64,000 nt of DNA from Bacteroidota bacterium (GCA_023475265.1 JAMCWE010000174.1:1-64000), one strand, 5' to 3'; shown: positions 1 through 25,726, numbered from the stretch's first letter. Made by a program: numbers and translations. Notes: a model not told the origin generated them from the letters alone.

Positions 1-1535
1 TCTAAACGAATATTTAAATGATTTTCACTTTTGATATGCTCAGACATTTTATTAGACAATTCTTCCTCAGCAAAAATGTATGGAACTTCAGAAGGAATTG
101 TCTCAAGCGTAGTGTTGAAATACATTGGTAAGCTCAAAAGAGGAATTTGATAGTCGTGTTCTATTGAAGGTTCATTCCTGATGTCGCGCTCAATTAAAGG
201 AGATTGATCAGCAATATTTTTATATATTCTCAAGAGCTGCTTATTGCACTCAAGAATAATTTCAGCTCCTATCTGTTTCAACATCGGGATAAACCGGATG
301 AACTGGATCGAATCACCAAGCCCTTGTTCATCGTAGACTAGAATTTTTTTCCCCTTCACTTCAATGCCGGTAATCAATTCAGGTTTCGAATAATTTCTAG
401 GATAAAATTCTTTCCTCTTCTTTCTCCATTCATACTCTTTCCAGCCTTCTTCAAAGTTTCCAGAAATCAGCAGAGCATGAGACTTATTGTAATGTATCTC
501 AGGATATTCTTGAGCACATTTCAAAGCGATATTAAAATACTCTATAGCTTCTTCCACAAATCCAAGCCCCATTCTCATCACACCTAGATTAGTAAATGCA
601 ATCGCCTTTGAATTTTTATCGCCGGATACTTTTTCAAAATATTTTTCAGCTTCTTTTTCATTCCCCAAATTTTTATAAATGTTACCGATATTGACCAATA
701 CACTTTCATAACCCGGATCAATCTTAATGACTTCATTATAATTTTCAATAGCAGCTTCCGGCTCTCCCATATCGCGGTAGCAGCTTGCAAGATTAAAATG
801 AGTCTGGGCATCTCCGTGGTTTCCTTCCAGCGCTTTTCTAAAATAAACTTCTGCTTCTTCATATCGATGAAGTTTATACAGCGATAGCCCGATATTATTA
901 TATGCAACTGTGTAGCCGGGATTAATTTCAATTGCTTTGCTAAAGTAATCTAATGCCTCCTCAAATTTTTTCTGCTGCATAAAACAGCTTCCTAAATTGA
1001 AAAGAAATTCGGGACTCTCCGGTTCATACTTCAATGCCGCTTGATAATCTCTTTTGGCTAAATCAAATCTTTCCTGATTAAAGTACAAATTACCGCGGTT
1101 GTTATACGCCTTACTGTTATCCGGTTGAAGCAAAATTGCAAGACTAAATTTCTTTTCAGCTTCATCATAATGTTTCAAGTTGATTAGAACGACACCAAGG
1201 TTATTTATTGCATCCGCATAATTCGGCTCAAGCTCGATTGCTCTTTCATAATGCTTACGGGCTGCACCATAATTTTTCAAAGATTGGTAACAAAGTCCAA
1301 GATTATAATGCGCAAAAAGATGAGGTTCAAAAAGACCAATAGTTTTTTCAAAATATTTAATCGCTTCGGCGAGTTCGCCCAAATTCAACTTAATAATTCC
1401 AAGCAAATGGAAAGCATCAAAATCTCGTTGATTATTATCAACGATATTCAATAATATTCCTTGAGCGGAAGAAAAATTTTTCCGCTCAAAAAACTCAACA
1501 GCTTGATTGTAAGCGTCTAAAACCTGGGTTTCCAT
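1..1535 (-). CDS. TPR protein with GT9/SPINDLY-like C-terminal region (partial)
   Basis: Open frame from ATG at 1535 to the left edge with no stop, so the C-terminus is missing. The visible 511 residues begin METQVLDAYNQAVEFF. About ten tandem tetratricopeptide repeats follow, with recurrent patterns such as YNNLG, A-x3-Y-x-A-I-E and NP-G/N-Y. After the repeats comes a stretch (EEGWKEYEWR, then VYDEQGLGDSIQFIRFIPML) typical of TPR proteins fused to heptosyltransferase-like (GT9/GT41-like) domains in bacterial glycosylation loci. The GLGD-x-I-QF motif is the usual start of that domain. It lies 25 bp downstream of another TPR gene and is the last visible gene of the glycan locus. Likely role: a glycosyltransferase, or a TPR scaffold for one. 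The domain class is fairly sure; the substrate is unknown. Confidence 0.8.
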   Translation of the reverse strand, partial: METQVLDAYNQAVEFFERKNFSSAQGILLNIVDNNQRDFDAFHLLGIIKLNLGELAEAIKYFEKTIGLFEPHLFAHYNLGLCYQSLKNYGAARKHYERAIELEPNYADAINNLGVVLINLKHYDEAEKKFSLAILLQPDNSKAYNNRGNLYFNQERFDLAKRDYQAALKYEPESPEFLFNLGSCFMQQKKFEEALDYFSKAIEINPGYTVAYNNIGLSLYKLHRYEEAEVYFRKALEGNHGDAQTHFNLASCYRDMGEPEAAIENYNEVIKIDPGYESVLVNIGNIYKNLGNEKEAEKYFEKVSGDKNSKAIAFTNLGVMRMGLGFVEEAIEYFNIALKCAQEYPEIHYNKSHALLISGNFEEGWKEYEWRKKRKEFYPRNYSKPELITGIEVKGKKILVYDEQGLGDSIQFIRFIPMLKQIGAEIILECNKQLLRIYKNIADQSPLIERDIRNEPSIEHDYQIPLLSLPMYFNTTLETIPSEVPYIFAEEELSNKMSEHIKSENHLNIRL

Positions 1536-1560
1536 TTTCTCATCATCAAAAAAAATTTCT

Positions 1561-2409
1561 TTAATAAGAATTTGAAAAGTGTAAGTTATGGGCTTTACCA
1601 TTCCCGCCTGTAATTCCCATTGCCTGCTCTACATTCTGCAAGCCTGTTCTTGCGAAATTGTTTTCAGGATTATGTTTCAGAGCTATCTCGAACATGGTTT
1701 TTGCAGCGGAATTATTTTTCTCCCGGAAGTAAATCTCACCGAGAGTAGCATACGCTTGAGATGAAAACGGATTCAGCTTCAGAGCCCGTTCAGCAGCTTC
1801 TTTTGTCTTTACATCGTCATTCAGTTCAAGGTAATTGAATGCGATAAAATTTTCTATACTGGCAAGAACTTCCTCGTGCTGCTTTCTTGTCTCGAACAAT
1901 TTGGTTAAAGCTTCCTTATATTTTTTCTGTGCGAACAGTTCCGCAGCTTCATCAAGAGGATCAGATTTTTCTTTCTTCGCAGGTTGGTTATTCCCGGCAG
2001 ACAAAGAATTATCTGCCATAGACAAATTCAATTTTGAATTTACATTTGCAAGCGCCTTTTGCGCACCGGGATGTTCGGGATTATTTTTTACCGCCCACTC
2101 GAACATCGTCTTTGCATTCTCGAACAAACCTTTTGCAATGAAATACTGACCAAGTCCGAGACAAGCTTCCGAAGAAGAATTATTTTCTTTCAGCGCTCTT
2201 TCAAAATCAGATTTAGCTTGTTCAAGATTGTTTGTGCTGAAATGAATGGTTCCTCTTAGGATGAATAAATCTTCAAGATTAAATCCGTCTGGTGAATCTT
2301 CCGGATCATACAATCTTTCAGCTTCATTCAGTTTATGAATAGCGAGTTCCGTTTCTCCTTTTGTATAGAGGTCATACGCCTGCAAAAAAAGATCTTTATA
2401 GTTTTCCAT
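1561..2409 (-). CDS. TPR repeat protein
   Basis: A 282-residue protein made almost entirely of tetratricopeptide repeats, with no signal peptide or membrane segment. The N-terminal block (residues ~1-130) and the C-terminal block (~150-265) are separated by a Ser/Asn/Lys-rich linker. Repeat signatures include AKSDFERALKEN, AKTMFEWAVKNNPEHPGAQKAL and AKTMFEIALKHNPENNFA. The start ATG at 2409 follows AAAGGTAA, a plausible ribosome-binding site. It sits between the 1243-aa glycosyltransferase and another TPR protein, both also TPR-tailed. A scaffold or chaperone role for the neighbouring glycosyltransferases is inferred from this context only; no enzymatic motif is visible. Confidence 0.85.
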   Translation of the reverse strand: MENYKDLFLQAYDLYTKGETELAIHKLNEAERLYDPEDSPDGFNLEDLFILRGTIHFSTNNLEQAKSDFERALKENNSSSEACLGLGQYFIAKGLFENAKTMFEWAVKNNPEHPGAQKALANVNSKLNLSMADNSLSAGNNQPAKKEKSDPLDEAAELFAQKKYKEALTKLFETRKQHEEVLASIENFIAFNYLELNDDVKTKEAAERALKLNPFSSQAYATLGEIYFREKNNSAAKTMFEIALKHNPENNFARTGLQNVEQAMGITGGNGKAHNLHFSNSY

Positions 2410-2432: not shown

Positions 2433-5400
2433 TTAAATATTTATTAATTCCAATTTTTTTTTAATAGCATTTATCTTTTCCGAAACGATTACATTATCTG
2501 CAGAAATCTTCAATGATTTATTGAACATATCCATAGCGTCTTGATCTTGCCCCATCTCTGAATAGACATCTCCAAGTCCTTCGTAAGCTCTGGATGACTC
2601 CGGTTGCATTTCCAGTTCCATTCTAAAATATTTTTCGGCTTTGTCGTAATTCTTTTCCATCAGGCAAATCTTAGCGGCAAGATGGTAAAGAGTCGCCGAA
2701 CTCTGATGAAATTTTTCATCTGTTTTATTTGCCGGATCGTTAAAAATATTTTCAAGATAAGAAAGCGCCAATGAATATTCTTGATCTTTGATGCATGCTT
2801 GCGCTCTTTTAATCCGTTCGGCATTCACATCAATATCAAGCGGATATTCAACGCTTTTATTCGAGCAAGGTTTGCCATGCAGCCAAATTTCTTCCGGGTC
2901 GGCGCCCCACTTCTCAATAAAAATTTTCTTATTTATATCCAGCCGCTCTTGATACTTTTTCGTTCCCTCCGCTGTAAAACTTTTAGAACCAAAATGATGA
3001 ATGAAAACATCCTGAGCAATTAAAGTTTTATATCCGGCAATTTGAGCGCGCAGACAAAAGTCGTCGTCCTCAAAATTTCCGGGTGAAAATCTTTCGTCGA
3101 GCCCGCCTATTTTGTTAATAACTTCTCTTTTAATCAATGTGCAAAGGAATGCGATCCTTGGGAATTGAAAATATTTTCCAGAATTGAGTTTAGCATTACT
3201 TTCAGCATAGCGGTGCATTTCATCAATAGTTTTATATGCGGCATTTTTATCAAGTTGAACGCCGCTTACAATATTGCTGATTGGACCAACTAATCCAACC
3301 TGGTTATTAGATTCCGCAAGTTCAACCATCCGGTTAAGCCAGTACTTTGTTACAACGATATCGTTGTTGGCAATCAGAATATATTTTCCTGATGCCGCTT
3401 TAATTCCCTGGTTTACACCTTTAGGAAAACCTAAGTTTTCTTTATTGAAAATTATTTTAATCATGTAATCGGATTTTGAAACTTCAGTTAAATACTTAAC
3501 TGTTTCCTTACCGCTTGCGTTATCAATAATAATAAGTTCAAAAGGCACATCGGTATTTTGAATTACTGAATCTATAAAGCTCTTTGTGTATTCAACCTGG
3601 TTATACGACAAAGCGATGATCGAAACTAAAGGTATTGATGTCTTGCTGTCTTTCTGCCAAATTGAATTAAACTCTGTGATTATCTCGTCCCGGTTAGGAA
3701 TTTTTTTTATTTCGCTTTCATATTTTTTATAAATATAATTTCTTGTTTTACCAAAAGCTTCCTGCTTAGAGGAAGTCATCGTTGTTCCGTCATCAAACCA
3801 GTTAACCTGAACTGTGTTTTCTTTTATATGCTTAAAACTTGAAATTGAAGAAAGCCTTAGCCAGAACTCCCAATCTTCAAGCACCGGAAGATTTTCATCA
3901 AATAATCCGATTTTTTCTATCAATGATTTTTCAAAGACAAAGCAATTTACCGGAGCTATGTTTCCGATCAGAAGTTTGTTTCGCTTGTAATCAATTGAAT
4001 AAGGAACTGTTTTATTAATTACTTTTTGTTTGGATTTATCGTATGTAAATCTCACGGCATCTGTATATATAACTGTCGTTTTCCCGGAAAGGTGTTTCAA
4101 AGCGGTTTTCAAATGAGCCGGGTAAAAAATATCATCGTCGTCCAGCAAAGCAATAAATTTCCCTTTTGCAGCTTTAAGTCCGGTGTTTCTTGCAGCTGCC
4201 AGTCCTTTGTTTTCTTGATGCTCAATATACTTGATTCTAGGATCATTAAATTCCAGAACAGTACCGGATACATCTTTACCGGCATCATTAATTACGATTA
4301 TCTCGAATAAACATGAATCCTGTTCCAATATGCTTTGAATGGCTTTTCTTAAGAGGTCCGGTCTGTTATAAGTCGGCAGCAATACTGAGACAACCGGATT
4401 ATCCGCAATGATTTTTTTTGTATTTTCAATCACTTCGTCTGCATATAATGAACAGTGATTAAGCACCATCTGAGCTATAAGATGTTCATTATATTTTAAA
4501 GCGTTTGTAATCATGCTTTGATTTTTAAGCCGGTAGTTTAATAAAGGTAAGGCTAGATGTTTCGCTTTAAATCCGTTGGCAAGGCTTGAAAGCCAGAAGT
4601 CCCAGTCTTCAAATCCCCAGATCATATTTGAATTATAGCCTGAGTTTTTCGACCAAACTTCTTTTTTATATAAAGAGCAATAAGGAAGACCGTTATCACT
4701 TCTTAACGGATTGAGGAACTCATTCTCTGCTATGCAAGTAACATATTTTTGCTGTGTCCCGAACGTTTCGTAATCAGAATAAAATATATCGTATTCTTTG
4801 TTCTCTTTAACGACAGCCGCAAAAGTTTCGAGCGCATTATGTTTTAAAGTATCGTCAGCATCCAGCGGTAGAATATACTCTCCGGCTGCAGCTTCAATGC
4901 CGGTGTTTCTTGCCCCGGCAAGCCCGCCATTCGTTTTCTCTATCAATCTAATTTTAAAGTCTGAATATTGACTAATTAACTTTTGCGCCACTTCGGTTGT
5001 ATTATCAGGGCTTCCGTCGTTTACGATAATACATTCCCAGTCTTCGTAAGTCTGCTTTACTACGCTCTCAATAGCTTCACTCAAAAGATGCGCCTGGTTG
5101 TAGCATGGAATAACCACTGAGATAAGCAGACTGTTTTTGGTTTCTTTAGTTTTAGAATTAACGGGCTGTGCTTTTGGGGCATAAGTCTTACTTGAAACTG
5201 CATGATTAACAAAACTGAAAATTTCATTGTAACGATGATGCCAGGTATGTTCCGCAATAGTCCGTTTAAAGGCATTTTGCGCTATACTTTCTCTTTTAGC
5301 AGGATGGGACAAATAATATTTTGTCTTTGCAATAAGATCTTTTACTGAATCAAATATTACAATCTCTTTACCGTTCTCATAGTATTCTTCAAGGTTTTCG

Positions 5401-6164
5401 GCATTGCTGGTTAACAAGAAACTCTTAGTCCCGGGAATTTCAAAGTTGCGCCCTTTTATTTGCTGTCCTATCATTGTCGAAGAATTGGAAAGATTTAGAT
5501 TAATTTTACTTCTGGAAAAAACACGAACCATCTGGTGAAAAGGAATACGCGGATATTTTTCCCAATTGAATCCGAATATCTTGATATCGATACCGGCTTT
5601 GATAATCTTTTCAATCAATTCTTTGCGGTCGCCGTGCGGCTGTCCGATAAAGCTGATATCAATATCTTTTTCCACATTATAAGGAACATATAATTCATGA
5701 TTGCATGCCCACTGTGTTTTTATTACTCTTTCCGAAATTCCTAGTTTCTTATATTTCGGCAGAGCACTGTTTGCAGTTGTACAGATGAAATCAAAATTAG
5801 GTGCAACTACGGAACTGTATTTTTCAAACCTCCAATGGTCGTCGCAAAACCAGTGTATCGTCTTTACTCCCAGCTCCGAGATTCTTTTAAATACTTCGTG
5901 CCGGGGATCTCTGTTGAAATCGAAAAGCACTGCAAACAGGTAACCGGGTTTCTCTTTTTTCACAAGTTCGTACAATTCTTCGGTCATTAAATCAATTCCG
6001 AGCTTCTCGCCTCTTTCCATAAAATCATAATGAATAAAGTCCCGGTCATTAGCCTTACAGTAGCTCTTAAGCGGATGAAAAAAATTCCGGTGCTCGAAAG
6101 ACAAACCTCTCGATTTGTTACCGTAATCGTATTTCATTCCGATGTAGAGAAGTTTTTCTTTCAT
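2433..6164 (-). CDS. multidomain glycosyltransferase: CgeB/DUF3880-like + three GT2 + TPR
   Basis: A 1243-residue fusion. Residues ~1-320 resemble CgeB/DUF3880 proteins with a C-terminal Glyco_trans_1_2 part (RNFEIPGTKSFLLT, then EEYYENGKEIVIF). Three GT2 (GT-A fold) domains follow. The first is at ~346-570 (VVIPCYNQ, acidic motif LDADD near 434-438), the second at ~591-800 (VLLPTYNR, LDDDD at 674-678), the third at ~845-1085 (IIALSYNQ, with NND at 933-935 in place of DXD, as in GT2 rhamnosyltransferase-like enzymes). Residues ~1115-1240 are TPRs. The start overlaps the upstream stop as ATGA (6161-6164), so translation is probably coupled. Probable role: several sugar transfers in one chain during assembly of a surface glycan or glycoprotein. 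Individual sugars cannot be read from the sequence. Confidence 0.88.
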   Translation of the reverse strand: MKEKLLYIGMKYDYGNKSRGLSFEHRNFFHPLKSYCKANDRDFIHYDFMERGEKLGIDLMTEELYELVKKEKPGYLFAVLFDFNRDPRHEVFKRISELGVKTIHWFCDDHWRFEKYSSVVAPNFDFICTTANSALPKYKKLGISERVIKTQWACNHELYVPYNVEKDIDISFIGQPHGDRKELIEKIIKAGIDIKIFGFNWEKYPRIPFHQMVRVFSRSKINLNLSNSSTMIGQQIKGRNFEIPGTKSFLLTSNAENLEEYYENGKEIVIFDSVKDLIAKTKYYLSHPAKRESIAQNAFKRTIAEHTWHHRYNEIFSFVNHAVSSKTYAPKAQPVNSKTKETKNSLLISVVIPCYNQAHLLSEAIESVVKQTYEDWECIIVNDGSPDNTTEVAQKLISQYSDFKIRLIEKTNGGLAGARNTGIEAAAGEYILPLDADDTLKHNALETFAAVVKENKEYDIFYSDYETFGTQQKYVTCIAENEFLNPLRSDNGLPYCSLYKKEVWSKNSGYNSNMIWGFEDWDFWLSSLANGFKAKHLALPLLNYRLKNQSMITNALKYNEHLIAQMVLNHCSLYADEVIENTKKIIADNPVVSVLLPTYNRPDLLRKAIQSILEQDSCLFEIIVINDAGKDVSGTVLEFNDPRIKYIEHQENKGLAAARNTGLKAAKGKFIALLDDDDIFYPAHLKTALKHLSGKTTVIYTDAVRFTYDKSKQKVINKTVPYSIDYKRNKLLIGNIAPVNCFVFEKSLIEKIGLFDENLPVLEDWEFWLRLSSISSFKHIKENTVQVNWFDDGTTMTSSKQEAFGKTRNYIYKKYESEIKKIPNRDEIITEFNSIWQKDSKTSIPLVSIIALSYNQVEYTKSFIDSVIQNTDVPFELIIIDNASGKETVKYLTEVSKSDYMIKIIFNKENLGFPKGVNQGIKAASGKYILIANNDIVVTKYWLNRMVELAESNNQVGLVGPISNIVSGVQLDKNAAYKTIDEMHRYAESNAKLNSGKYFQFPRIAFLCTLIKREVINKIGGLDERFSPGNFEDDDFCLRAQIAGYKTLIAQDVFIHHFGSKSFTAEGTKKYQERLDINKKIFIEKWGADPEEIWLHGKPCSNKSVEYPLDIDVNAERIKRAQACIKDQEYSLALSYLENIFNDPANKTDEKFHQSSATLYHLAAKICLMEKNYDKAEKYFRMELEMQPESSRAYEGLGDVYSEMGQDQDAMDMFNKSLKISADNVIVSEKINAIKKKLELINI

Positions 6165-9100
6165 AATTCAGCCGGAATTAAGTTAAGTAGATTATTCGCT
6201 TCAATGTTTTCAAAATCCAACTCCAGCGCGTCTTCAAGATATTTTTTCGCTTCTTCCATTTCATTATTATTTATAAGCAGCCTTGCCGCCTGGAGATAAG
6301 AATAAATATCCCTGTAATTATTTTGGAGTTGGCTCTGGATTCCGTTAATTCTCGATCTCACTCCATTCACAAATTTTTTATGGTACAGCCTTAAATACAG
6401 CTCTTCATATTTATCGACGACCGATTCCCAGGTAAATTTTTCTTTCCATTCGGCATAACCTTCGGCAGCTAATTTCTTTCTGAGCGTCTCGTTGTCCAGA
6501 AGCTTATTTATTGTAACTGAAATTCCATTTTCTTCACAGATGATTCCGCCTTTTAACTTCCGTACATTACCGCAGCTGGTTGAAATAAACGGAGTCTTAG
6601 ATGCTTTGGCTTCAAGTATAACCAGCGGGAAAGCTTCTATGCGCGATCCGAACAGGAATAAATCGGCTTGATGGTAAGCAGCAACTGTGTCTTCACGGCT
6701 TATCTTCTGCAAAAAAATGATATCAAGATTTTCTGCCGCCTTTTTTAGATAACTTAATTCCTCGCCGTCTTTGCCGATGAAAACAACCGATATATCGCTT
6801 CTCTGTAATTCTTTAACCGCGTTAATGATTCTTTCGTGACCTTTGCTCTTATAATAATTCGCAACGCACAGAGCCATAAATCTTTTTTTAATTCCGTACT
6901 TTTGGCGGAAATTAATTCCCGGTCGCTTTTCAAATTCTTCTTCGCCTACGCCGTTGGGAATTATTACGCTGTTTGAAAATCCGTGGTTCATCGCAAACTC
7001 GTAATCCTGGTAACCTGACGAATGGTAAACCGCCGCATCGTACAACGGAATTATCTTCGGGATGAATTCATTATAGTATTGCGAGAACTGAGTCCATCTT
7101 ATCGTTCTGCTGTCTTGAAGCGCCGAATATCCGCACGGAGCTATAATATTAATCCGGCTTTTAATTAATCTATCCAATACTGTAAATACTATATCAGTAC
7201 CCCACTGCTGGGCCGCATAGTTCATCATAATATCGGCTGGACTTGAAGTTAAAAATTCCTGGTACTTTGCTAATCCGCTTCCCGAAATCCCGTTGCCGAT
7301 AGAACCGCTAAGATCGAATTCTTTAACGGTCACTCCATTTAACTTATTGAAGTTTCTTCCACTAATTTTTGAAGTAGCAACCGTTACAGAATGACCGCGC
7401 TTTACAAGCCTCTCGGATAATTCCTGCACTACTAGCTCGGCTCCTCCTACATGAGGGTGGTAATATTCCACTGTGTGAAGAATATCGAGATGTTTATCAG
7501 AATGCTTGAAAGTTTTTTTCGGAATTTGACCCGGCTTCTTTGCCATTATGTTTAAGCTGATGTACTCGTTAAAAGGTTCTTTAGCCATCGAAGCATCGAA
7601 CGGAATGCCGAGCCAATGCGGGCTATGCGGGTATTCTTTTACATCGATGAAACCAACCTCTTCAAGCATTGTCTTTAAATAAGTAAAATTGAATCCGGTT
7701 TTATGATAATCGTAAATGTCCGTCTGCCCGCCGTACAGAAGACCTATCCATGGAGTGTTACCGGGCTTTAGAAAATGTTTTTTATTTCTATTGTAAATGC
7801 TAACTATCCGGTCAATGTCAGGAACAGATATCCTCAACTCGGCGTTGTAATCTAAAACTTCGAACCACCTGGAAAGTATTGATTTGATCTCATCATTTGG
7901 AAAATGTTCCAGTACGTGGCATGCATAAATTAGCCCCACAGAATTTTTATCGAAGTTTCTTAGTTCTTTTATGTCGTCAACAATATCAACTTCGTTCAGA
8001 TAAGGATCGATATCGACGTTAATAAAATTTTCCAGCTTCACGTCGCCGCATCCGAGATGAAGCTTATATTTAGCGTCTGATTTTTTATTTATTGACCAAT
8101 TATAATAACTGGAAATCTTGCTCGCGAGTATTTTTTGAATCTGCGCTCTTTTGCTGCCGATGCTGTTGGAATGTAATCTTATTTTATGCAGAACTTCCTT
8201 CAGGTTAATAATTTTAAAGCCTGCGATTAATGCCCTGGCAAAAAAGTCGTAGTCATCTACGCTTTTAAATTCCTCTCTGTAATTCCCGATTTTGTCGAAT
8301 ACTTTTTTCCTAATTAACGCTGCACTGTTGATAACCGAATTTTTTCTGCCGAAAGTATTTTTAATAGCCGGGTAATCATACTCAATTGAAGGCTGCCCCA
8401 ATTGCTTTCCTTGATCGTTGAAATATTCCGCTGCACAGCCTGCAATGTCCACATCCGGTTCCGATTCAAGATATGTGACAAGCTTCTCAAGCTTCTGCGG
8501 CATAGATATATCGTCGCTGTCGTGATTCATTAAATATTTGGATGTACTACTGATTTTTGTTAATGCAAAATTCCTTGCAAATACTTCCCCCCGGTGCTCA
8601 ACAGAAAATACTTTAATCCTTTCGTCTCTTTTTGCATAGCCGGTAGCAATGTCCAAAGTTCGGTCTGTCGAACCGTCATCAACAATAATTATTTCAAAAC
8701 CTGAAAAAGTCTGCGACAATAATGAGTCCAGTGTTTCTGATAAATATTTTTCGCCGTTATATACCGGCATAAAGATCGAGACCAGAGGTATAATTTCTTT
8801 CCGGTAACTTTCGCTTGAATCTAAATGACTTATTACACTAAGTTTGCCTTCAAATTCAGCGCACCATATTTTCCAGAGCCTTTCTTCAGTCTCCGAATTA
8901 TTCACCATGCTGTCGCGGAGAATCTGCTTGCCGCTTTCTACAATTTCATTGAACTTAATACCAATTTTCTTTTGTGCAGTAATAACAATATTTCTAGTAA
9001 GCTCATATTCCGTGTGTTCGATGTTTGTTATTTCATATCCTAGCCTGGTTAAAATATACTTGTACTTTTCTTCATACCATCCGTCATAGTGGTATGCCCA

Positions 9101-10273
9101 CTTTGCTTCATGGGAACCGAAAACATGCCGCAGCACAGCTTGCTTCTGCTGGTAAGAAAGAGCCTTGTCTATCAGTAGTGAAATGCATCCCTCGAGATCA
9201 GGTGTTTCGATTATTAATTTTCCGGCAGCTTTTAACCACTTGTTCCATTTGCAAAGAAGAGCCAGAGCGGCTGGTCTGTCGAAGTGTTCGAATACATGAT
9301 GAAGTCTGATCTCATCTATTGAATTCTCCTGATAATCAAGCTTCGTTATATCAGCATATAAATCAACTTTTGTATTCCGCTGTACTGAATGCTCTGATGG
9401 AGGATAATCGATATTTATATATCCTTCCAGATATCTTTCACCGCATCCCAGATGCAGTTTAAATTTATTTTTTTCCTTTAACGCAAGATTGGAAGCTTCA
9501 ATTTTTTCTGACATTAATTTTAGCTCGTTTTCGTAATGATTAAAAAAAACATCAAGCATAATTCTGCGCGGGTTCGGTGTTGCTGTATTAAAATATGGCT
9601 GCCACTTCTTTTTATAATATGAAATATCCTTTTCTGCTTCGGTTAGATTTTCTTTTTTGTTTACATCGAGATCATTTTTATGAATTATTTTTGAATACGG
9701 CAGTGGTAAAATTTTATAGCCTTCTTTTAATAACTTCAGGCAAAGATCGCCATCTGCACAATAAAATTTATAGTCCTCGTCAAGGCCGTTTACTTTATGG
9801 AAAAGATCGATACGGATAAGCCCATAATTAATAAACACATTATTACCGTGTGTAAGATCGACACCATAATCTTTCCACTCACCTTCTGCTATTACATTTT
9901 TATAAAAAAAAGCGCCGCCACCAACACTTTCATTGGAGCTATTTAAAAATTCGATTGCATTATCAAGTGAGTTCTTGTCAAAAATAATATCATCGCTTGC
10001 ATACATTCCCCATCTGCCTGATGCATGCTTAAATCCGAAATTATATAACCGGGACCAAGAATGTCTACCTTCTCCAAATTGTTCCCTTTCACTAAATATT
10101 TTATTTACATTAAATTCTTTTAGAATTTCGGTCGTATTATCGGTCGAGTTCCCGTCAATTACGATTATTTCATAACTTATCCGTTCCGCAGCCTTTTGCA
10201 GACTACTAAGCATCTCGCCGAGCAGTTTACCCCGATTCTTCGTTGCCAGTATTATGCTGAGATCAAAACTCAT
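6161..10273 (-). CDS. multidomain glycosyltransferase/methyltransferase: GT2-MT-GT2-MT-GT4-TPR
   Basis: A 1370-residue fusion with five catalytic-looking modules. GT2 spans ~1-230 (IILATKNRG, DD at 94-95). A class I SAM methyltransferase spans ~270-435 (KLHLGCGERYLEGYINID). A second GT2 spans ~496-720 (FMPVYNGEKYL, HDSDD at 584-588). A second methyltransferase of the same subtype spans ~735-912 (KLHLGCGDVKLENFINVD). A GT4/GT-B glycosyltransferase spans ~929-1300 (YYHPHVGGAE near the N-terminus, EAFPLVILEAKA as the E-x7-E region). A short TPR tail occupies ~1320-1370. The two methyltransferases share the opening LHLGCG and are probably internal duplicates. The ATG at 10273 overlaps the upstream gene by 11 bp and is preceded by AGGAAAG. 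Likely role: sequential transfer and O-methylation of glycan sugars. Confidence 0.88.
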   Translation of the reverse strand: MSFDLSIILATKNRGKLLGEMLSSLQKAAERISYEIIVIDGNSTDNTTEILKEFNVNKIFSEREQFGEGRHSWSRLYNFGFKHASGRWGMYASDDIIFDKNSLDNAIEFLNSSNESVGGGAFFYKNVIAEGEWKDYGVDLTHGNNVFINYGLIRIDLFHKVNGLDEDYKFYCADGDLCLKLLKEGYKILPLPYSKIIHKNDLDVNKKENLTEAEKDISYYKKKWQPYFNTATPNPRRIMLDVFFNHYENELKLMSEKIEASNLALKEKNKFKLHLGCGERYLEGYINIDYPPSEHSVQRNTKVDLYADITKLDYQENSIDEIRLHHVFEHFDRPAALALLCKWNKWLKAAGKLIIETPDLEGCISLLIDKALSYQQKQAVLRHVFGSHEAKWAYHYDGWYEEKYKYILTRLGYEITNIEHTEYELTRNIVITAQKKIGIKFNEIVESGKQILRDSMVNNSETEERLWKIWCAEFEGKLSVISHLDSSESYRKEIIPLVSIFMPVYNGEKYLSETLDSLLSQTFSGFEIIIVDDGSTDRTLDIATGYAKRDERIKVFSVEHRGEVFARNFALTKISSTSKYLMNHDSDDISMPQKLEKLVTYLESEPDVDIAGCAAEYFNDQGKQLGQPSIEYDYPAIKNTFGRKNSVINSAALIRKKVFDKIGNYREEFKSVDDYDFFARALIAGFKIINLKEVLHKIRLHSNSIGSKRAQIQKILASKISSYYNWSINKKSDAKYKLHLGCGDVKLENFINVDIDPYLNEVDIVDDIKELRNFDKNSVGLIYACHVLEHFPNDEIKSILSRWFEVLDYNAELRISVPDIDRIVSIYNRNKKHFLKPGNTPWIGLLYGGQTDIYDYHKTGFNFTYLKTMLEEVGFIDVKEYPHSPHWLGIPFDASMAKEPFNEYISLNIMAKKPGQIPKKTFKHSDKHLDILHTVEYYHPHVGGAELVVQELSERLVKRGHSVTVATSKISGRNFNKLNGVTVKEFDLSGSIGNGISGSGLAKYQEFLTSSPADIMMNYAAQQWGTDIVFTVLDRLIKSRINIIAPCGYSALQDSRTIRWTQFSQYYNEFIPKIIPLYDAAVYHSSGYQDYEFAMNHGFSNSVIIPNGVGEEEFEKRPGINFRQKYGIKKRFMALCVANYYKSKGHERIINAVKELQRSDISVVFIGKDGEELSYLKKAAENLDIIFLQKISREDTVAAYHQADLFLFGSRIEAFPLVILEAKASKTPFISTSCGNVRKLKGGIICEENGISVTINKLLDNETLRKKLAAEGYAEWKEKFTWESVVDKYEELYLRLYHKKFVNGVRSRINGIQSQLQNNYRDIYSYLQAARLLINNNEMEEAKKYLEDALELDFENIEANNLLNLIPAEL

Positions 10274-13200
10274 TTACACTTTCCTGCATTTTATTCTTAG
10301 TAATTATCTCAAGGTTATTTTTTGCGATTTCATTGCCGGGATCTATATCAAGAATTGTTTTTAACAATTTAACAGCAGACTCATTATTTTCCTGCAAAGA
10401 ATTAACAACTGCCAGGTCGATTAACGCTTCTATATTGGCGGGATCTTTTTCAATTATGCGGGTTAATATTTCGTTTGCTTTTTGATAATCTTTATCTTCA
10501 ATTGCCTCTTCTGCTTTCCAGATCGAATTTTCTTCAGCCACTATTATTTCATAATTGTCTACGTCAAGAAATTTTGTAACTGTTTTTATATTGTTATTGT
10601 CTTGAACAAATATTCTTACATTTTCAGAATTACTCAGAAGACTTTGCTCAACGGCAACTTTTATTGTACCCGCAGAAATGTGGGTAATACATTTATACTC
10701 CGGAAATTTACATTTCCAGTTGCACCCGAAACAACCCATAGGATAGGCAACAAGAGAAGTAAGATTTGAGTAAGGCATAAACCTGCCCAAATGCCCGCCG
10801 CCTATAACAATAACATTGGGAGTTCCAACGGCGCAAGCTATATGTGCGTTACCAGTTTCAGCTCCTACCGCTAGTCTGCATTTTTTTATAATCGCAGCAG
10901 TCTGCAGTATTGTTGTCTTACCGGAAAGGTTAATTGTACTTGCATCAATGTCATTTAAATTAGATTGGTTGATTTCGTAATCTTTGTTAGAACCTACAGC
11001 AACAACACTGAATCCGTTTGAGCTGCAAATATCAGACAAAGCTTTGCCATAATTATAATACAGCCTGTGATCATTCTGAGCACCGGCAAACAATACTATC
11101 GTTTTTTGGGGATCTAATTTATTATCAGTAAAAAATTGCTCGGCAAATTTTTCATCATCTTCGCCTAGCCACATTTCCGGTTTTAATTTTCCAAGCCATG
11201 CACCAATTCCGGCTAAAAATATTTTATATCTTTTTAATTCACTTAACCAGCCTGCACCTGTCTTTACGGAATTCGATGATAATTTTCTTGCTTCGTTTAC
11301 CCATTCCTGAGTGCTGTTTACGGCATTACCGTCAATCCTTATAATTTTTTCCGCTCCGGCAGTGATTGCAAATAAATCGGTTATTTCCTCACTCGAAAAA
11401 ACCGAATTAATCACGAGATCAAATTTTCTATTTCTAATATTTACAATTACTTCTGTTTTATAATTTTCGTCAACATAAATTCTTTGTTTATCAATCGTAA
11501 TAATTTTTTTTACGTAAGGTGAGTGTTTATATAATTCGGCAATATGTTCCTGGCAAAGAACAGTAATATCGGAATTTGAAAATTTGTCTTTAATTTCTTC
11601 AAGCATTGAAGAAGCTAAAACATTATCTCCAATAGAATCTGTTCTTATAAATAAAATATTCTTCGGTTGGAATCCTTTTAGCGAAATAACGGAAAGAGCA
11701 TACTTGGAAGTAGGAGTAAATTTTGCAATGCAAAATCCGAATTTTTCATCCGACAAATTAATTATCTGGAAACGGCTGTCACTCTTCATTTGCATAAGAC
11801 TTTTTTTATGCTTTATATGATTAACATCATCAAGCGCAACAATACATTCTTTATTTAATCTCTCGATAACGTAATTAAATTCAAGATTACCTATATGACC
11901 ACCGCTGTCTAGCAAAACAAAGTCGGGTTCATAATTAAAAGTAATAAGGCATTGTTCAAGCAAAGCATCATCAACATTCGTAAAATTCGTTTCATTATAG
12001 TAAAGCTTTGCTCTTTCACTCTCTTTATGATCAACAAAAACATTATCGAATTCAATTTCTTTAACTGTACTTCTTTCTATTTCTTCAATTGAAGGAAGAA
12101 TTTCCCGAGGAAGCGAGAGACCGTTTAAAAGAGAAACAAAATCATTAAGACTGCTCATTTCGATATTCTTCTTAGCTTCATTGTAATTATCTTTATTTAC
12201 TTCAATCGAAAAGAATTTAGTATTAACCAATCCGTTTTCTTTAAGTGCTTCGGCAATTATTTTTGTTGTACCGGTGCCGTGAAAAGTTCCAGTCTCAATA
12301 ATTTTTGTTGGTTTTATTCTTTTTATTACTTTTTTAATTCCATTTGCAAATTCAGAAACAGAATCAATTTGAGTTAAGCTTTTATCTTTTTCAAATTCGC
12401 CGGCTACCTTAATTCCTTTTTTATTCATCATAAAAGGCTGCGATGTTTTGTGAGTATTAAAAATATTGTTTCCAATTTTATTACAGAAAAAGTTCCAATT
12501 ATGATATTGTTCAATAATATTTCTGTTCTTTTTTTGTAGTATCCTTAAATTTTCCTCATCCATATTTAAAGCATTATTAACGGTGAAGATATTATGCTCT
12601 TTATCAGATAGAGATAATAGAATAAATGAGGAATAATAATAACCGCATTGCGGAGTGGTAATCGGAATTAAGCCAATGGACATACTTTCTAATAATGTAG
12701 TGGGTGATGCATCACTTACTGACATATTTATAAAAAAGTCACATGTATTTATTATATTATTAACCACAGTTTGATCTCTCAAACTAATACTGCCAATATA
12801 TTTTGTATTCGTTCTGTCCTTAATGATGGAAATATCTTCGTCGGAATAATGGCCTGCAATAATTACAGGACACTCCAGTTTGAGTAGCAGCTTGAATAAT
12901 TCTTTTGTACCTTTCTCTTCACCGCTACGCCCAAATACGAAGAGACCGCGTTTACCCACCGGATTGAATTTATTTTTTTTAAATGAAAAAACTTTTGAAT
13001 CAACCGCATTATCAAGCCTTATAATTTTATCTTTTAAATAACGGAATTCCGTTTCATCAATTGTGTCCATCCAGTAGTGCCCGCTAATTACAAATAATTT
13101 ATCTGCACTTGCAGCGAGTTCTTTAACATATCTATTTATTTCAGGAATTCTGGTATGTAATGGCCATAGTAAATATTTACCGGCACATTCATGTTCAAAT

Positions 13201-15350
13201 AATCGTTTTAATATTGTACCTTCTTCGGGATGGGGATGCCCGATAATAATATCTTCATTGCTTACAGTAATTTTAGAAGTTTTATCAATTAAATCGTAAT
13301 ATTTAACCTCTCCGAATTTTTGCAAGTATCTGAATACACGGTTAGTAATAGTTCCGGGGGCAGTGATTACATCATCATTAAGAGGATCTCCTGAATAGAC
13401 AAAATGAATAACCTGAGCTTCTTTCTTTACCGGGAAGGATACTAATCGAGTTTTAAAATTTATATTCTTTTTATATTCACCTATAAAATAAAAATCATGT
13501 CTATAAGGTTGATTATAAAGCCCCAGATACTTCTTTTCGTAAATAGTGTTAAAATTATTAACTAAAAAATCTTTGAGATAATTTTCTTCAAGACGTATTG
13601 GATGGCCTGCATCGAATTGTTTCTCAACTATTGATTTAATTGTTTCAGCATTAAATGCAATATCAGCAAAAACAAAAATCCCATTTTCATTAAGAAGTGA
13701 AACCAAAACTTCAAAAATTTTAGGTATATTATAACAATGCTCTAACACATTATTCATAACTACCAAATCATATTTTTCTTTCGTTACAAAATCTTCAATT
13801 GTTGAATTAATAATCTGTACCGGAAACCCTAATAAATTACCATTTTTGTATGTGCAATTTGGATGCTTTAAATATTCTGAAATTAAAGGATCGAGAAGTG
13901 CAACACTTTTTACAGATTTAATTTCAGGTAAAATAACTCTTAAATTTGTAAATGGACCACATCCTAACTCTATTACTTTTTCAAATTTGAAATTTTTAAG
14001 TGATCCATAATTATTAAATCTTTTTTTGTGTTCATAATTCCTATCATCATTACTTCCCAGGCTTCGTTCCATCCAAGTCTTTTTTTCGTATTTCTGAGCG
14101 GTAAGCCAGCGATTCTTATCAACAGATATAATTCCTTTATCTGTCAGAAAATCCTTATCATTACTTTTAGTCAATAGATCTGAAGCGGTTTCACCATAAA
14201 AAACTTCTATATTTTCATTTACATATACAGACTTTATTCTTTTTGATTCCTCATCATTAATATATTCCATTATGTTATTATAGTTACATTTATCCTGAAC
14301 AAACTTTACAGGGAAGACTGTTGGCTCGTTTAATTTCAATAATTCAGCTAATTCTTCTTTTATGTTTAACAGTTCATTTTCAAATGCTTTTTTAAATGCG
14401 GAACTTTCTACAGATATATCGTTACCATTATTTCTTAGTATTTCTAATTCCTTGTAGCAGGTAAAGTAGTAATGAGATTTGGGGATTGGCTTATTTGTAA
14501 GATTACCTCCTAAAAGGGCTCGTGTATTATTATAGTCATTCCATATTGAATTGAATGATATCCATGAACATTTAATTGGAACAGAATTATAAAACACTTC
14601 TCCGTTACCATACTTTTTTATATAATCATTTTGAAAAGCTTTAGAGAGTTCGCTTCTTTTGAGTCCGCTGGCTCCAGTACCTAATTGTGGTGAGCCTAAA
14701 ACACCTAATGATCTGTCTATATGAACTACTGAATCAGCAAAAGCTAAAATAGAAAAACCAAGTCCATAATCCGGCGCAATTTGTGTAATTATTTTCCCGT
14801 TTGATTTTAAACTTATTTTTTCAATTATATTTTTTGAAACCAAAGCATTTATTGCTCTTGGAATGGGTAATTGTTTGTACACGAATGATTCAGTCATTAT
14901 CGTATCTAGAATCTTCTCTGTTTTTACGACTAATTCTTTACCACTGCCGTATGTCCTATTTATAAAATGTTCATGATCATGAAAACCATCAAATAACCAG
15001 GTTACAACTTCAGTATTGTAGTTTTGAATAACCGAATGTATTTCTTCTAGTGCATGTAATTTTAATGCTTGCTTGTCTTCCAATATCGTAATGAACAAAC
15101 CTTTTGATTCTAAAATACCTCTTTCCCAGTTGTCCGACATATTTAACTTACCGGTTCTAATGTATTTGATTTTATTACTGTTAAATTTAGACACAACTTC
15201 AAAAGTATCATTTGTGTCGTCATTGTCTACAACTATCAATTCATAATCTTTAAAAGTCTGGTGTAAGACACTTTCAATTGCGTAATTAACAAGAAAACTT
15301 CTGTTTTTTGTAGGAATTACAATTGTAAAAAAAGGATTATTCATAGGCAT
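10263..15350 (-). CDS. giant glycosyltransferase/methyltransferase: GT2-MT-GT1-like-MT-GT9-TPR
   Basis: A 1695-residue polypeptide, the largest in the window. GT2 lies at ~8-270 (TIVIPTKNR; the usual DXD is replaced by ILEDKQ near 89-94). A class I SAM methyltransferase is at ~455-625 (VIELGCGPFTNLR, NVLEHC). A GT-B/GT1-like domain is at ~645-960 (GRSGEEKGTKELF, SDASPTTLLESMSIG). A second SAM-type domain, similar to the CmcI/class I group, is at ~995-1210 (IIETGTFHGTGTT, VLLDSGGH). A GT9 heptosyltransferase-like domain is at ~1228-1575 (ILFIRTDSIGDNVL, GAETGNAHIA, a Cys cluster at ~1540-1554). TPRs occupy ~1612-1680. No clear ribosome-binding site precedes either early ATG (15350 or 15344). 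It is the first intact gene after the 15.7-kb palindrome. Confidence 0.87.
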   Translation of the reverse strand: MPMNNPFFTIVIPTKNRSFLVNYAIESVLHQTFKDYELIVVDNDDTNDTFEVVSKFNSNKIKYIRTGKLNMSDNWERGILESKGLFITILEDKQALKLHALEEIHSVIQNYNTEVVTWLFDGFHDHEHFINRTYGSGKELVVKTEKILDTIMTESFVYKQLPIPRAINALVSKNIIEKISLKSNGKIITQIAPDYGLGFSILAFADSVVHIDRSLGVLGSPQLGTGASGLKRSELSKAFQNDYIKKYGNGEVFYNSVPIKCSWISFNSIWNDYNNTRALLGGNLTNKPIPKSHYYFTCYKELEILRNNGNDISVESSAFKKAFENELLNIKEELAELLKLNEPTVFPVKFVQDKCNYNNIMEYINDEESKRIKSVYVNENIEVFYGETASDLLTKSNDKDFLTDKGIISVDKNRWLTAQKYEKKTWMERSLGSNDDRNYEHKKRFNNYGSLKNFKFEKVIELGCGPFTNLRVILPEIKSVKSVALLDPLISEYLKHPNCTYKNGNLLGFPVQIINSTIEDFVTKEKYDLVVMNNVLEHCYNIPKIFEVLVSLLNENGIFVFADIAFNAETIKSIVEKQFDAGHPIRLEENYLKDFLVNNFNTIYEKKYLGLYNQPYRHDFYFIGEYKKNINFKTRLVSFPVKKEAQVIHFVYSGDPLNDDVITAPGTITNRVFRYLQKFGEVKYYDLIDKTSKITVSNEDIIIGHPHPEEGTILKRLFEHECAGKYLLWPLHTRIPEINRYVKELAASADKLFVISGHYWMDTIDETEFRYLKDKIIRLDNAVDSKVFSFKKNKFNPVGKRGLFVFGRSGEEKGTKELFKLLLKLECPVIIAGHYSDEDISIIKDRTNTKYIGSISLRDQTVVNNIINTCDFFINMSVSDASPTTLLESMSIGLIPITTPQCGYYYSSFILLSLSDKEHNIFTVNNALNMDEENLRILQKKNRNIIEQYHNWNFFCNKIGNNIFNTHKTSQPFMMNKKGIKVAGEFEKDKSLTQIDSVSEFANGIKKVIKRIKPTKIIETGTFHGTGTTKIIAEALKENGLVNTKFFSIEVNKDNYNEAKKNIEMSSLNDFVSLLNGLSLPREILPSIEEIERSTVKEIEFDNVFVDHKESERAKLYYNETNFTNVDDALLEQCLITFNYEPDFVLLDSGGHIGNLEFNYVIERLNKECIVALDDVNHIKHKKSLMQMKSDSRFQIINLSDEKFGFCIAKFTPTSKYALSVISLKGFQPKNILFIRTDSIGDNVLASSMLEEIKDKFSNSDITVLCQEHIAELYKHSPYVKKIITIDKQRIYVDENYKTEVIVNIRNRKFDLVINSVFSSEEITDLFAITAGAEKIIRIDGNAVNSTQEWVNEARKLSSNSVKTGAGWLSELKRYKIFLAGIGAWLGKLKPEMWLGEDDEKFAEQFFTDNKLDPQKTIVLFAGAQNDHRLYYNYGKALSDICSSNGFSVVAVGSNKDYEINQSNLNDIDASTINLSGKTTILQTAAIIKKCRLAVGAETGNAHIACAVGTPNVIVIGGGHLGRFMPYSNLTSLVAYPMGCFGCNWKCKFPEYKCITHISAGTIKVAVEQSLLSNSENVRIFVQDNNNIKTVTKFLDVDNYEIIVAEENSIWKAEEAIEDKDYQKANEILTRIIEKDPANIEALIDLAVVNSLQENNESAVKLLKTILDIDPGNEIAKNNLEIITKNKMQESVNEF

Positions 15351-15386: not shown

Positions 15387-15671
15387 TTACTTAAAAATTA
15401 GTAAGTCTTCTCTATTAGCAGTTGGATTATATCCTAAGTAGATAATAAAATTACTGAATCCGTGTAAGAATATATTTTTTAATATTCCTAAAATGTTTTC
15501 TTTAGATTTCAATCCTCTGTTTTGATTTAGATCGTGATTATTCGATAATCTATGAACCATAGCATCCATAAGAATTACTGCTTTCATTGCTACAAGTATT
15601 ATTTGATCATTATTTGTTTGATTCAAACTAAATCTATGCCATCTGGTTTTTAAGTTTTTTAATGATTTCAT
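15387..15671 (-). pseudogene. decayed fragment of a second rfbF-like nucleotidyltransferase
   Basis: The 94-codon frame has a middle part (residues ~28-82) that aligns without large gaps to the N-terminus of RfbF encoded at 24835-25611: MKAVIL vs MKVVIL, NILGILKNI vs PILWHIMKI, and GFSNFIIYLGY vs GFNDFIICLGY. The glycine-rich nucleotide-binding loop of the intact copy (LAGGFGTR) has become LMDAMVHR, and all sequence beyond ~60 residues of the domain is missing. It therefore cannot be an active cytidylyltransferase. Residues outside the match have no recognisable relative. The upstream 41 bp also resembles the leader of intact rfbF, which supports a duplication followed by decay. Residual coding of a small peptide cannot be excluded. 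Confidence 0.65.
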
Positions 15672-16050: not shown

Positions 16051-16806
16051 TTATCTTATTCTTTTCAAAAAACCATCCGGAGATCCTGTAAGAATTAATT
16101 TTGAATCTATAGTTTTATCGATATTAAAATTCTTGTTCTCCTTTAAGAATTCCCATACAGCAGTTTTGGGATTATTTCCTTTACCCCACGGGCGATTAAT
16201 AGTTGTTCCTACTGGCAGGTCTTCAACACCGGTATCTCCAACCATGAAATAACTGCCGACACTAACCATCGGTGCGTAAGCCCTAAGTTCATTTAAAACA
16301 TGGTTATGGGTATGATTACTATCCAGAAATACCATCACTCTTTTTTTGTCCTTTGCAAACTCTCTAACTTTTGTAATAATATTTTCATCAATACTGGAAC
16401 CTTCCAACATTGTAATTTTCTTATTTAACGGATGAGCAAGTATTGCTTCTTTATTGTGTTGGCGAATATCAATGTCAATTCCTACTACCTGACCGTTTTC
16501 TATCTGATCGCATACTTCTAAAATTGCTAACATGGAAGCACTGAATAATATTGATCCACCCCAGGCTATTCCGGTTTCTATGATCAAATCAGGTTTAACC
16601 TGCCATATAATTTCCTGCATTGCCTGAAGGTCTTGAGGTGCCTGAATAATTGGAACACCAAGCCAGAAGAAATTATATGCATATTTTGATTTAACAATTT
16701 GTTCATGAAATTTTTGCCAGGCTTCCTGGAGATTTTTATCGTCCTGGTACGATCTTGTTCTCTCAAGAGATTCTTTACGAAATTGTTCTAATGGATTTTC
16801 AGTCAT
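16051..16806 (-). CDS. CmcI-type (cephalosporin hydroxylase family) SAM methyltransferase
   Basis: A 251-residue protein of the CmcI/rhamnosyl O-methyltransferase family (PF04989 type), about the usual length. The SAM-binding loop is IETGIAWGGS at residues 76-85, an acidic strand end follows at GIDIDIR (~109-115), and FLDSNHTHNHV (~160-170) is the conserved metal/active-site segment. The conserved C-terminal part includes GDTGVEDLP and NRPWGKGNNP. Members O-methylate sugars in glycans and antibiotics; the 'hydroxylase' name is historical. It is the last gene of the rfbF operon, 22 bp downstream of a GT4 gene, so it probably methylates a hydroxyl on a sugar built by that operon. Confidence 0.85.
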   Translation of the reverse strand: MTENPLEQFRKESLERTRSYQDDKNLQEAWQKFHEQIVKSKYAYNFFWLGVPIIQAPQDLQAMQEIIWQVKPDLIIETGIAWGGSILFSASMLAILEVCDQIENGQVVGIDIDIRQHNKEAILAHPLNKKITMLEGSSIDENIITKVREFAKDKKRVMVFLDSNHTHNHVLNELRAYAPMVSVGSYFMVGDTGVEDLPVGTTINRPWGKGNNPKTAVWEFLKENKNFNIDKTIDSKLILTGSPDGFLKRIR

Positions 16807-18166: not shown

Positions 18167-18910
18167 TTATAAACTTGCATGCAAATCAAGCCAGCCCAGT
18201 GCTAATTCCTGATTATCAATAATTTTCAATTCTTTATATTTGACGTACCGGGTCAGAGCCTCATCAAAGGATAACCATTTGTTTTCGATTAAATCCTTCC
18301 CAAAAAAACCAGACGAATATTTAGAAAACTGATAATCAATTTCTTTACCTTCGTACGAAGTTTGTGATTTTTCTTTTTTTCTATTTATGTTATTAAGTTG
18401 ATTAACAAGCTGAAACTTTTTATACCCTGAAACATATAACCATGAAAATATACCTGTATAATCTCGCTTTGATGTTTCAAATGAAATATATTGAGGTTTA
18501 TTGTCTATTCTAAAAAGCTGTTCTGCAACTTTTAAATCACAACCTTCAATGTCAACTTTAACATAAAGAGGAGTACCATATTCTTTACACAAATCAATAA
18601 GTGAAATAGCTTCAACAGTTATTACTTTAGATTTTGTGCCATCACTTTCAGCCATATTCACATCACAACTGCTCCAATCAGCTTTATAAGGGTGAATGTA
18701 AAAATTTAAAATTCCTTTTTTATCAGAAACGGCTTTATTGATCAATACAAGTTTATTGTTATTAATATAATCCCTAAACCTATCTAAGCTTTTATTTACC
18801 AACTCAGTATTGGCCTCAAGAGCAACTACGCAAAATCCTTTTTTAATGTAAAAATCAGTGTCATCACCATTATGAAATCCTAAATCAAATATTAAGTTTT
18901 CTTTTGTCAT
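18167..18910 (-). CDS. FkbM-family methyltransferase
   Basis: Class I SAM methyltransferase of the FkbM type: LIFDLGFHNGDDTDFY near the start (motif I), VVALEANTEL (motif II acidic residue), ISLIDLCKEYG and YVKVDIEGCDLKV (the hallmark K-x-D-I-E-G of FkbM proteins). The ATG at 18910 is preferred over one at 18946. It directly follows the stop of the upstream gene and is preceded by GGTAAGG, whereas the longer form would overlap the neighbour by 32 bp. This gives 247 residues. It probably O-methylates a sugar in the locus's glycan. It is one of two FkbM proteins in tandem, so two hydroxyls or two sugars may be modified. Confidence 0.85.
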   Translation of the reverse strand: MTKENLIFDLGFHNGDDTDFYIKKGFCVVALEANTELVNKSLDRFRDYINNNKLVLINKAVSDKKGILNFYIHPYKADWSSCDVNMAESDGTKSKVITVEAISLIDLCKEYGTPLYVKVDIEGCDLKVAEQLFRIDNKPQYISFETSKRDYTGIFSWLYVSGYKKFQLVNQLNNINRKKEKSQTSYEGKEIDYQFSKYSSGFFGKDLIENKWLSFDEALTRYVKYKELKIIDNQELALGWLDLHASL

Positions 18911-18914
18911 AACC

Positions 18915-25611: not shown

Positions 25612-25726
25612 CATTAGCAACATTATTTTATAATTGTTTAATTAAATTATTCTAAATCCATACCACGGAGTTTTTAAGCTTTTTTAGATGTTTTAAGGAA
25701 ATTATTATTGGTCTTTTTTCTGTACT

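Follow-up and report, generated by a model that had tools for sequence, protein, structure and literature searches.

Islands for the glycosylation of flagellin are already known, and those found in the literature consulted consist of small enzymes with one glycosyltransferase (GT) domain each. FlmG, the flagellin O-glycosyltransferase of Caulobacter, acts on flagellin in the cytoplasm, binds it through its TPR part and adds pseudaminic acid with a single GT domain (PMC7591256). GmaR of Listeria, both a flagellin O-GlcNAc transferase and an antirepressor, attaches GlcNAc to flagellin and is a 637-aa protein in which one GT2 domain is followed by TPRs (PMC9638930). The accessible part of a report on Aeromonas (PMC7874193) describes polymorphic polar-flagellin islands (fgi, heptasaccharide) whose several GTs, predicted to act in the cytoplasm, extend a variably methylated flagellin glycan; in that part Fgi-1 is a single GT2 enzyme of 313-327 aa acting on the pseudaminic acid linker, and giant TPR-tailed fusions are not described. 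GT and methyltransferase (MT) modules do share one soluble chain in WsaE, which acts on the S-layer glycan of Geobacillus, and the cluster, with its tight gene overlap, also holds a TPR protein, WsaA. WsaE, however, has three active domains (two GTs and a 2-O-methyltransferase), no TPR tail is mentioned for it, and its product is a lipid-linked polymer whose export depends on an ABC transporter (PMC2943079). K4CP and heparosan synthase, finally, are tandem GT2 enzymes of two domains that make a repeating polymer.

In the locus considered here, a pathway of this kind appears to have been condensed into giant TPR-tailed fusions, whose modules seem to have been exchanged between phyla and species while their order was kept. 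The window, by which is meant the whole stretch of DNA analysed, comprises 64,000 nucleotides (bases 1-64000 of a 68121-base contig) from a metagenome-assembled genome (MAG) of the Bacteroidota that consists of 270 contigs with 3.7% contamination. Its first quarter is occupied by the following proteins (G033 is a genome of the same genus):

10263-15350, minus strand: Protein C, 1695 aa, GT2 (C1)-MT23 (C2)-GT1-like (C3)-CmcI-type MT (C4)-GT9 (C5)-TPR (ORF and Pfam)
6161-10273, minus strand: Protein B, 1370 aa, GT2 (B1)-MT (B2)-GT2 (B3)-MT (B4)-GT4 (B5)-weak TPR (ORF and Pfam)
2433-6164, minus strand: Protein A, 1243 aa, CgeB-type GT (A1)-GT2 (A2)-GT2 (A3)-GT2 (A4)-TPR (ORF and Pfam)
1561-2409, minus strand: Protein D, TPR only, 67% to G033 (Pfam)
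3-1601, minus strand: Protein E, cut by the contig start, TPR plus GT-B (OGT/SPINDLY/GT9-like), with a layout like that of FlmG

Neighbouring ORFs overlap, A and B by 4 bases, B and C by 11. Since all three lie on the minus strand, they would be transcribed in the order C, B, A, with C first. The initial annotation had placed three consecutive overlapping genes in exactly this span, 2433-15350, and with exactly these lengths, and a Pfam profile search bore out the domain orders it had proposed. Its count of 11 transferases and four MT domains held for the MTs; the profile search finds ten GT domains in A, B and C, which is also what its own lists add to, and an eleventh GT is the C-terminal part of Protein E, outside the three fusions. 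That each fusion ends in TPRs is solid for A and C but weak for B, where the one repeat scores 23.8 bits, below the Pfam cut-off of 25.7, and of the two further TPR proteins said to follow, D is indeed TPR only, E carrying a GT-B domain as well. Between Protein C and the CmcI gene that precedes it is a gap of about 700 bases, in which there is one short ORF (about 90 aa; about 15387-15671, minus strand). The domains are as follows:

14631-15350, minus strand: C1, GT2, orphan, EDK replacing DxD, probably atypical or inactive (Pfam and alignment)
13431-14153, minus strand: C2, Methyltransf_23-type methyltransferase, 56-82% identical per 50-aa tile to G042 (Pfam)
12411-13430, minus strand: C3, GT1/GT4-like GT-B domain, the weakest assignment (Pfam, 27.8 bits)
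11706-12383, minus strand: C4, RMNT_CmcI-type (rhamnosyl O-methyltransferase-like), 68% identical to a same-genus module (Pfam)
10581-11705, minus strand: C5, GT9 (heptosyltransferase-type) (Pfam)
10266-10580, minus strand: TPR tail of C (TPR_19, 36 bits)
9554-10273, minus strand: B1, GT2, 54% to Brocadia (comparison)
8924-9511, minus strand: B2, methyltransferase (Pfam)
8084-8806, minus strand: B3, GT2, 63% to Brocadia, DxD and base motif present (comparison)
7499-8071, minus strand: B4, methyltransferase, 65% to Thermodesulfovibrionia (comparison)
6374-7498, minus strand: B5, GT4, EX7E present, 59-60% to Nitrospirota (comparison)
6164-6373, minus strand: TPR tail of B, weak, one repeat below the cut-off (Pfam)
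5160-6164, minus strand: A1, CgeB-type GT (PF13524), 69% to Brocadia, 31% to the best same-genus module
4425-5147, minus strand: A2, GT2, closer to other phyla (50% vs 32%) (comparison)
3660-4424, minus strand: A3, GT2, closer to genus and family (52-54% vs 45%) (comparison)
2805-3659, minus strand: A4, GT2, conserved terminal module, 64% within the genus (vs 41%) (comparison)
2436-2804, minus strand: TPR tail of A, helix pairs in the AlphaFold2 model (Pfam and model)

The GT1-like assignment of C3 lies just above its cut-off (27.8 vs 26.4 bits); its homologue in G042, a genome of the window's own GTDB family, reaches 37.1 bits, and that genome encodes a 3301-aa fusion, one part of which is 67% identical to C2-C4 as a whole. 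In an AlphaFold2 model of residues 340-1243 of A (mean pLDDT 77, pTM 0.42), three GT-A domains precede a tail of helical repeats; its structural neighbours are chondroitin polymerase, heparosan synthase and SpsA. K4CP and heparosan synthase are the best GT matches of Protein A among solved structures, and the tandem GT2 arrangement is common to both; here, however, ten unlike GT domains are spread over three proteins, and the glycan they make is probably non-repeating.

Catalytic motifs could be checked in the eight GT domains with enough homologues (A1-A4, B1, B3, B5 and C5), C3 having one homologue for this purpose and C1 none. In all eight, the motif residues invariant among homologues are retained, and the few departures all fall outside the motifs: A2, A3, A4, B1 and B3 keep DxD or NND together with the acidic base motif, B5 keeps EX7E, and A1 and C5 keep their conserved residue sets. 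A careful alignment might have found most domains stripped of catalytic residues, as the initial annotation had allowed; instead, at least two GT domains with conserved catalytic motifs share one chain, judging by the eight that could be tested. The sole GT2 domain without DxD is C1, which carries EDK at that site, has no close relative in the loci fetched and, from its sequence, probably lacks canonical catalysis. Since C1 may be inactive, a strict reading of one domain for one sugar would break at this point.

Upstream of C, in the direction of transcription, lies a series of sugar genes that ends in a conserved flank:

16051-16806, minus strand: RMNT_CmcI O-methyltransferase
16829-18163, minus strand: GT4 glycosyltransferase
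18167-18946, minus strand: FkbM methyltransferase
18915-20102, minus strand: second FkbM methyltransferase
20081-21109, minus strand: radical SAM/SPASM protein
21106-22053, minus strand: SDR sugar-nucleotide epimerase/reductase
21957-23183, minus strand: C-methyltransferase (Methyltransf_13/23/14), TylCIII type
23189-23731, minus strand: RmlC-type 3,5-epimerase
23732-24853, minus strand: CDP-glucose 4,6-dehydratase (RfbG)
24835-25623, minus strand: glucose-1-phosphate cytidylyltransferase (RfbF)
25831-28071, minus strand: GT2-GT2 protein, 62% to G033 in the same place
28019-29152, minus strand: UDP-galactopyranose mutase (Glf), 75% to G033 in the same place
29271-31136, minus strand: U621, membrane/coiled-coil flank gene of the island, 78% to G033

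Going by known pathways, the likely product of RfbF, RfbG, the RmlC-type epimerase, the TylCIII-type C-methyltransferase and the SDR is a CDP-linked C-methylated 6-deoxyhexose. The earlier expectation of a methylated glycan containing deoxyhexose and Galf gains from this: besides the four MT domains of the fusions, the operon encodes CmcI, two FkbM proteins and the TylCIII-type C-methyltransferase, and both the CDP-glucose pathway and the UDP-galactopyranose mutase needed for supply are present. Within the 64-kb window no gene was recognised for a flippase, Wzy, an O-antigen ABC transporter or a phosphoglycosyltransferase, and this agrees with a glycan built on a cytoplasmic protein. U621 (621 aa) matches no Pfam or NCBIfam family and adjoins the island across the GTDB family at identities from 78% down to about 30%. 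Beside the island, at 31896-32279, is a short pilin-like protein (127 aa) with a hydrophobic N-terminal helix and no Pfam match, also present in G033, and close by the island, at 34802-37528, is a methylcobalamin-dependent methyltransferase cluster (MtaA/CmuA-like, a corrinoid protein and a homocysteine methyltransferase-like protein).

The connection to flagellin emerges from the same locus in sister genomes. In G033, one side of the island carries phoH, carAB, mnmA and others, then U621 (78%), Glf (75%) and the GT2-GT2 protein (62%), while the other side carries A3 (52%), A4 (61%), the TPR tail (48%), D (67%) and E (55%), followed by a gene here called GT501 and by fliC, fliS and fliD, the flagellar genes being confirmed by Pfam. 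Both flanks thus match those of the window, but the interior differs. A like arrangement upstream of fliC, with other giant proteins, the longest of 4708 aa, is found in G031, G032, G027, G034, G037 and G035, and a variable interior between conserved flanks is seen when the window is compared with G033, G032, G031, G027 and G034. In another genome of the genus, G029 (locus L092), fliC-fliS-fliD and U621 lie about 9 kb apart, and upstream of fliC the stretch fetched is free of any GT array; this may be a natural loss of the island.

A survey of 80 genomes of the window's GTDB family, 39 with a flagellin-family gene and 41 without, found A4 in 25 of the 39 and in none of the 41 (Fisher p 4e-11), and GT501 in 33 of the 39 and again in none of the 41 (p 1e-16), p-values that are inflated by the phylogenetic non-independence of the genomes. 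Where A4 and GT501 occur on one contig they are never more than about 6 kb apart (19 of 19 genomes), and GT501 is within 10 kb of flagellin in 25 of 27 same-contig cases. The association extends to other phyla: in Brocadia (L010) a GT array adjoins flgK-flgL-fliW-csrA, in a member of the Verrucomicrobia (L012) one comes straight after fliC, and in a planctomycete (L015) one is next to fliD.

GT501 is a 501-aa GT2-TPR gene of the sister genomes, outside the window, and in G033 the order is D-E-GT501-fliC. Its GT domain matches GmaR at 4.8e-36 and SunS, a peptide S-glycosyltransferase, at 1e-22. It thus shares with GmaR a homologous GT2 domain followed by TPRs, in a chain of 501 rather than 637 aa, and lies near flagellin in sister genomes; the one GT domain of GmaR, however, sets it apart from the fusions of the window. 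Protein E, for its part, resembles FlmG in joining TPR and GT-B on one chain. A model of its sister copy (mean pLDDT 79) has an N-terminal TPR and a C-terminal GT-B, which matches the GT9 structure 3tov (Z 18.5, 255 residues, rmsd 3.0) and also OGT and SPINDLY. Since E carries both parts, it is probably a transferase itself. By analogy, the first sugar of the chain may be set either by GT501, in the manner of GmaR, or by E, in the manner of FlmG or OGT. Unlike FlmG, which adds pseudaminic acid, the present set has many GTs and MTs and would draw on CDP- and UDP-sugar donors; no pseudaminic acid pathway genes were recognised in the window, and genes assigned to the NeuB family (to family level) occur elsewhere in the genome.

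Because of the synteny of the sister loci, the co-occurrence of A4 with flagellin and the GmaR-like gene close to fliC, the locus is very likely a flagellin-glycosylation island, worked by a modular set of TPR-tailed enzymes. The protein acceptor is very probably flagellin, to judge by context and analogy. The initial annotation had suggested that the TPR tails dock onto a protein acceptor, and the context, together with the flagellin-binding TPR part of FlmG (PMC7591256), speaks for it: the tails likely dock on flagellin. Several observations stand against this reading, however. The window's contig stops inside E, so the placement next to fliC rests on synteny, and in the organism's own genome a profile search for fliC (PF00669) matched only FlgL, while neither a FliD of the genus type nor GT501 was found. 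The TPR of B is weak and C1 is probably without canonical catalysis; GT2, CgeB, CmcI and Glf domains are common in O-antigen loci too; and the mosaic described below could in principle reflect a chimeric contig, although A, B and C show host-like codon usage.

Two further contigs of the same genome carry related genes. On C193 (L050, 1-6102), the end of a FliD gene, FliS and a FliT-like gene are followed by a GT2-MT-TPR protein of 729 aa, whose GT2 is 44% identical to A4, and by a multi-GT2 protein. This contig was considered as the missing piece of the window's locus and dropped, its FliD and FliS having no BLAST match to the genus type; the fragment is either contamination or a replaced filament locus. 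A 3.2-kb contig, C44 (L053), with TPR, GT9 and TPR-GT2 genes, probably stems from a modular GT island as well.

In the model proposed, A, B and C would carry, as modules, most of the enzymes that extend and methylate the chain of a single O-glycan. Synteny would place them in an operon running from the sugar-nucleotide genes through C, B, A, D, E and the GmaR-like GT2-TPR gene to fliC, fliS and fliD. A TPR-bearing glycosyltransferase (the GmaR-like protein, or the FlmG/OGT-like E) would start the glycan by linking a sugar to Ser/Thr of flagellin while it is still in the cytoplasm. With their TPR tails, A, B and C would then keep flagellin, or the growing glycoflagellin, near the catalytic domains, where the GT domains would attach several sugars (the CDP-derived C-methylated 6-deoxyhexose and perhaps also Galf among them) for methylation by the MT domains. 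Flagellin would be exported after glycosylation.

Such fusions are not confined to this genome. In G042 a single 3301-aa protein runs from C2-C3-C4-C5 into GT2 modules and on through A4-TPR, and the 4708-aa protein of G031 is likewise a single chain; the sister-species giants hold up to about 12 catalytic domains on one chain. Relatives of B occur in Brocadia, Thermodesulfovibrionia, Nitrospira, Verrucomicrobia, Planctomycetota and others, though the similarity of these loci to B is a matter of selection, because B was the query with which they were retrieved. With gene boundaries unlike those of A, B and C, Brocadia has fusions of 2723 aa (GT9-TPR-GT2-MT-GT2-GT4) and 1549 aa (CgeB-GT2-GT2-GT2-GT2-TPR), and Nitrospira has fusions of 1775 and 2325 aa. 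The same kinds of modules are separate genes in MAGs of Gemmatimonadetes, Planctomycetota and Kapabacteria, among others. A survey of related genomes, as the initial annotation had advised, thus turned up both fused and split versions in several phyla. Through all of these, fused and split, the module order C4-C5-B2-B4-B5-A1-A2-A3-A4 is held in 76 of 76 pairs from 22 loci; since the loci share ancestry, the 76 pairs are not independent observations.

The modules differ in their nearest relatives. By 50-residue tiles, residues 1-600 of A are nearest Brocadia and Nitrospirota, and from about residue 700 onward A is nearest the genus and family, the affinity switching at residues ~600-700. The close relatives of B all belong to other phyla (Brocadia, Nitrospirota, Verrucomicrobia etc.), and B is absent from the other 79 genomes of the family at E 1e-60. 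In C, residues 400-1230 are nearest the family, C4-C5 nearest the genus, and C1 is an orphan. The likeness of A1 and A2 to other phyla and the absence of B from the family are observations separate from the selection imposed by the query. The codon usage of all three proteins is host-like, close to that of core genes. Our reading of these comparisons is that modules were swapped at or near domain borders, partly from other phyla, while the end nearest fliC (A3-A4-TPR, D and E) and the distal flank stayed in place.

Might the fusions or their mosaic be artefacts of assembling a metagenome bin? The fragmentation and contamination of the MAG invite the question, as do the joining within A of segments with different nearest relatives and the isolation of B within its family. 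Fused orders recur, however, in independent genomes and with other gene boundaries (3301 aa in G042, 4708 aa in G031, 2723 plus 1549 aa in Brocadia), and for this reason the fusions are taken as real; the frames are open without stops, codon usage is host-like and both flanks match G033. We regard assembly error as extremely unlikely. Perhaps, instead, the fused GTs lengthen a glycan linked to undecaprenyl, which is then flipped to the cell surface as O-antigen, capsule or EPS, and the flagellar neighbourhood is incidental. O-antigen loci typically contain GT2, GT4, CgeB, CmcI, Glf and CDP-sugar genes, and multi-module polymerases are described for K. pneumoniae O4/O7 (PMC11231755). An O-antigen role is nonetheless disfavoured, because the export genes listed above were not recognised in the window and because of the flagellar link, A4 being found within the family only in flagellin-positive genomes, close to GT501 and fliC; the genome has, moreover, separate candidate polysaccharide loci on contigs C30 and C113. 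A lipid-linked polysaccharide is therefore very unlikely, and the failure to recognise export or polymerase genes in the window argues also against a repeating polymer primed by lipid or oligosaccharide, of the K4CP or WsaE type. A protein other than flagellin could be the acceptor, for instance an S-layer protein (S-layer glycan loci likewise include the TPR protein WsaA and the GT-GT-MT fusion WsaE) or the pilin-like protein at 31896-32279, whose gene adjoins the island and is kept in G033. But no orthologue of that gene was seen beside the other sister islands examined, where fliC is constant, and GT501 resembles GmaR, a flagellin glycosyltransferase, so that another acceptor seems very unlikely.

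If flagellin is indeed the acceptor, there is still the question of whether the order of domains means anything. The initial annotation had likened the gene order to that of a modular synthase. In such a colinear assembly line, flagellin held by the TPRs would be processed by the GT and MT modules in the order C-B-A or its reverse. Conserved module order is a prerequisite of this idea, and the order found is compatible with it, but common descent alone would suffice to conserve it; we think colinearity doubtful. The fusions may well be only a metabolon or a device for co-expression, with domains that act independently and an order that says nothing of sugar order, an explanation somewhat better than evenly probable. 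The low confidence with which the GT-A domains of the modelled part of A are placed suggests beads on a string, cross-phylum relatives exist as single genes, and C1 looks degenerate. Against it, the module order has held in every pair despite changing gene boundaries and neighbouring modules, and modules have been swapped into the same relative place.

What is unusual in the flagellin-glycosylation island proposed here, relative to the fgi islands, FlmG, GmaR, WsaE and the two-domain polymerases, is that so many unlike modules share a chain and that they are exchanged. No prior description of such modular exchange was found in the literature searched, nor anything relevant on flagellar proteins with multiple GT domains, on the shuffling of flagellin-GT domains or on flagellin glycosylation in Ignavibacteria, a search whose reach took in few of the subscription journals. 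Polyketide synthases evolve by module swapping. If the colinear idea were true, the flagellar glycan would be readable from the genome, and new glycans would evolve as modules are swapped into a fixed scaffold, the end of which is a constant A4-TPR. In either case the swapped modules offer a natural series for asking whether domain order sets sugar order, and the system bears on how a protein-bound glycan may be built without a lipid carrier and how an exposed surface glycan may be diversified.
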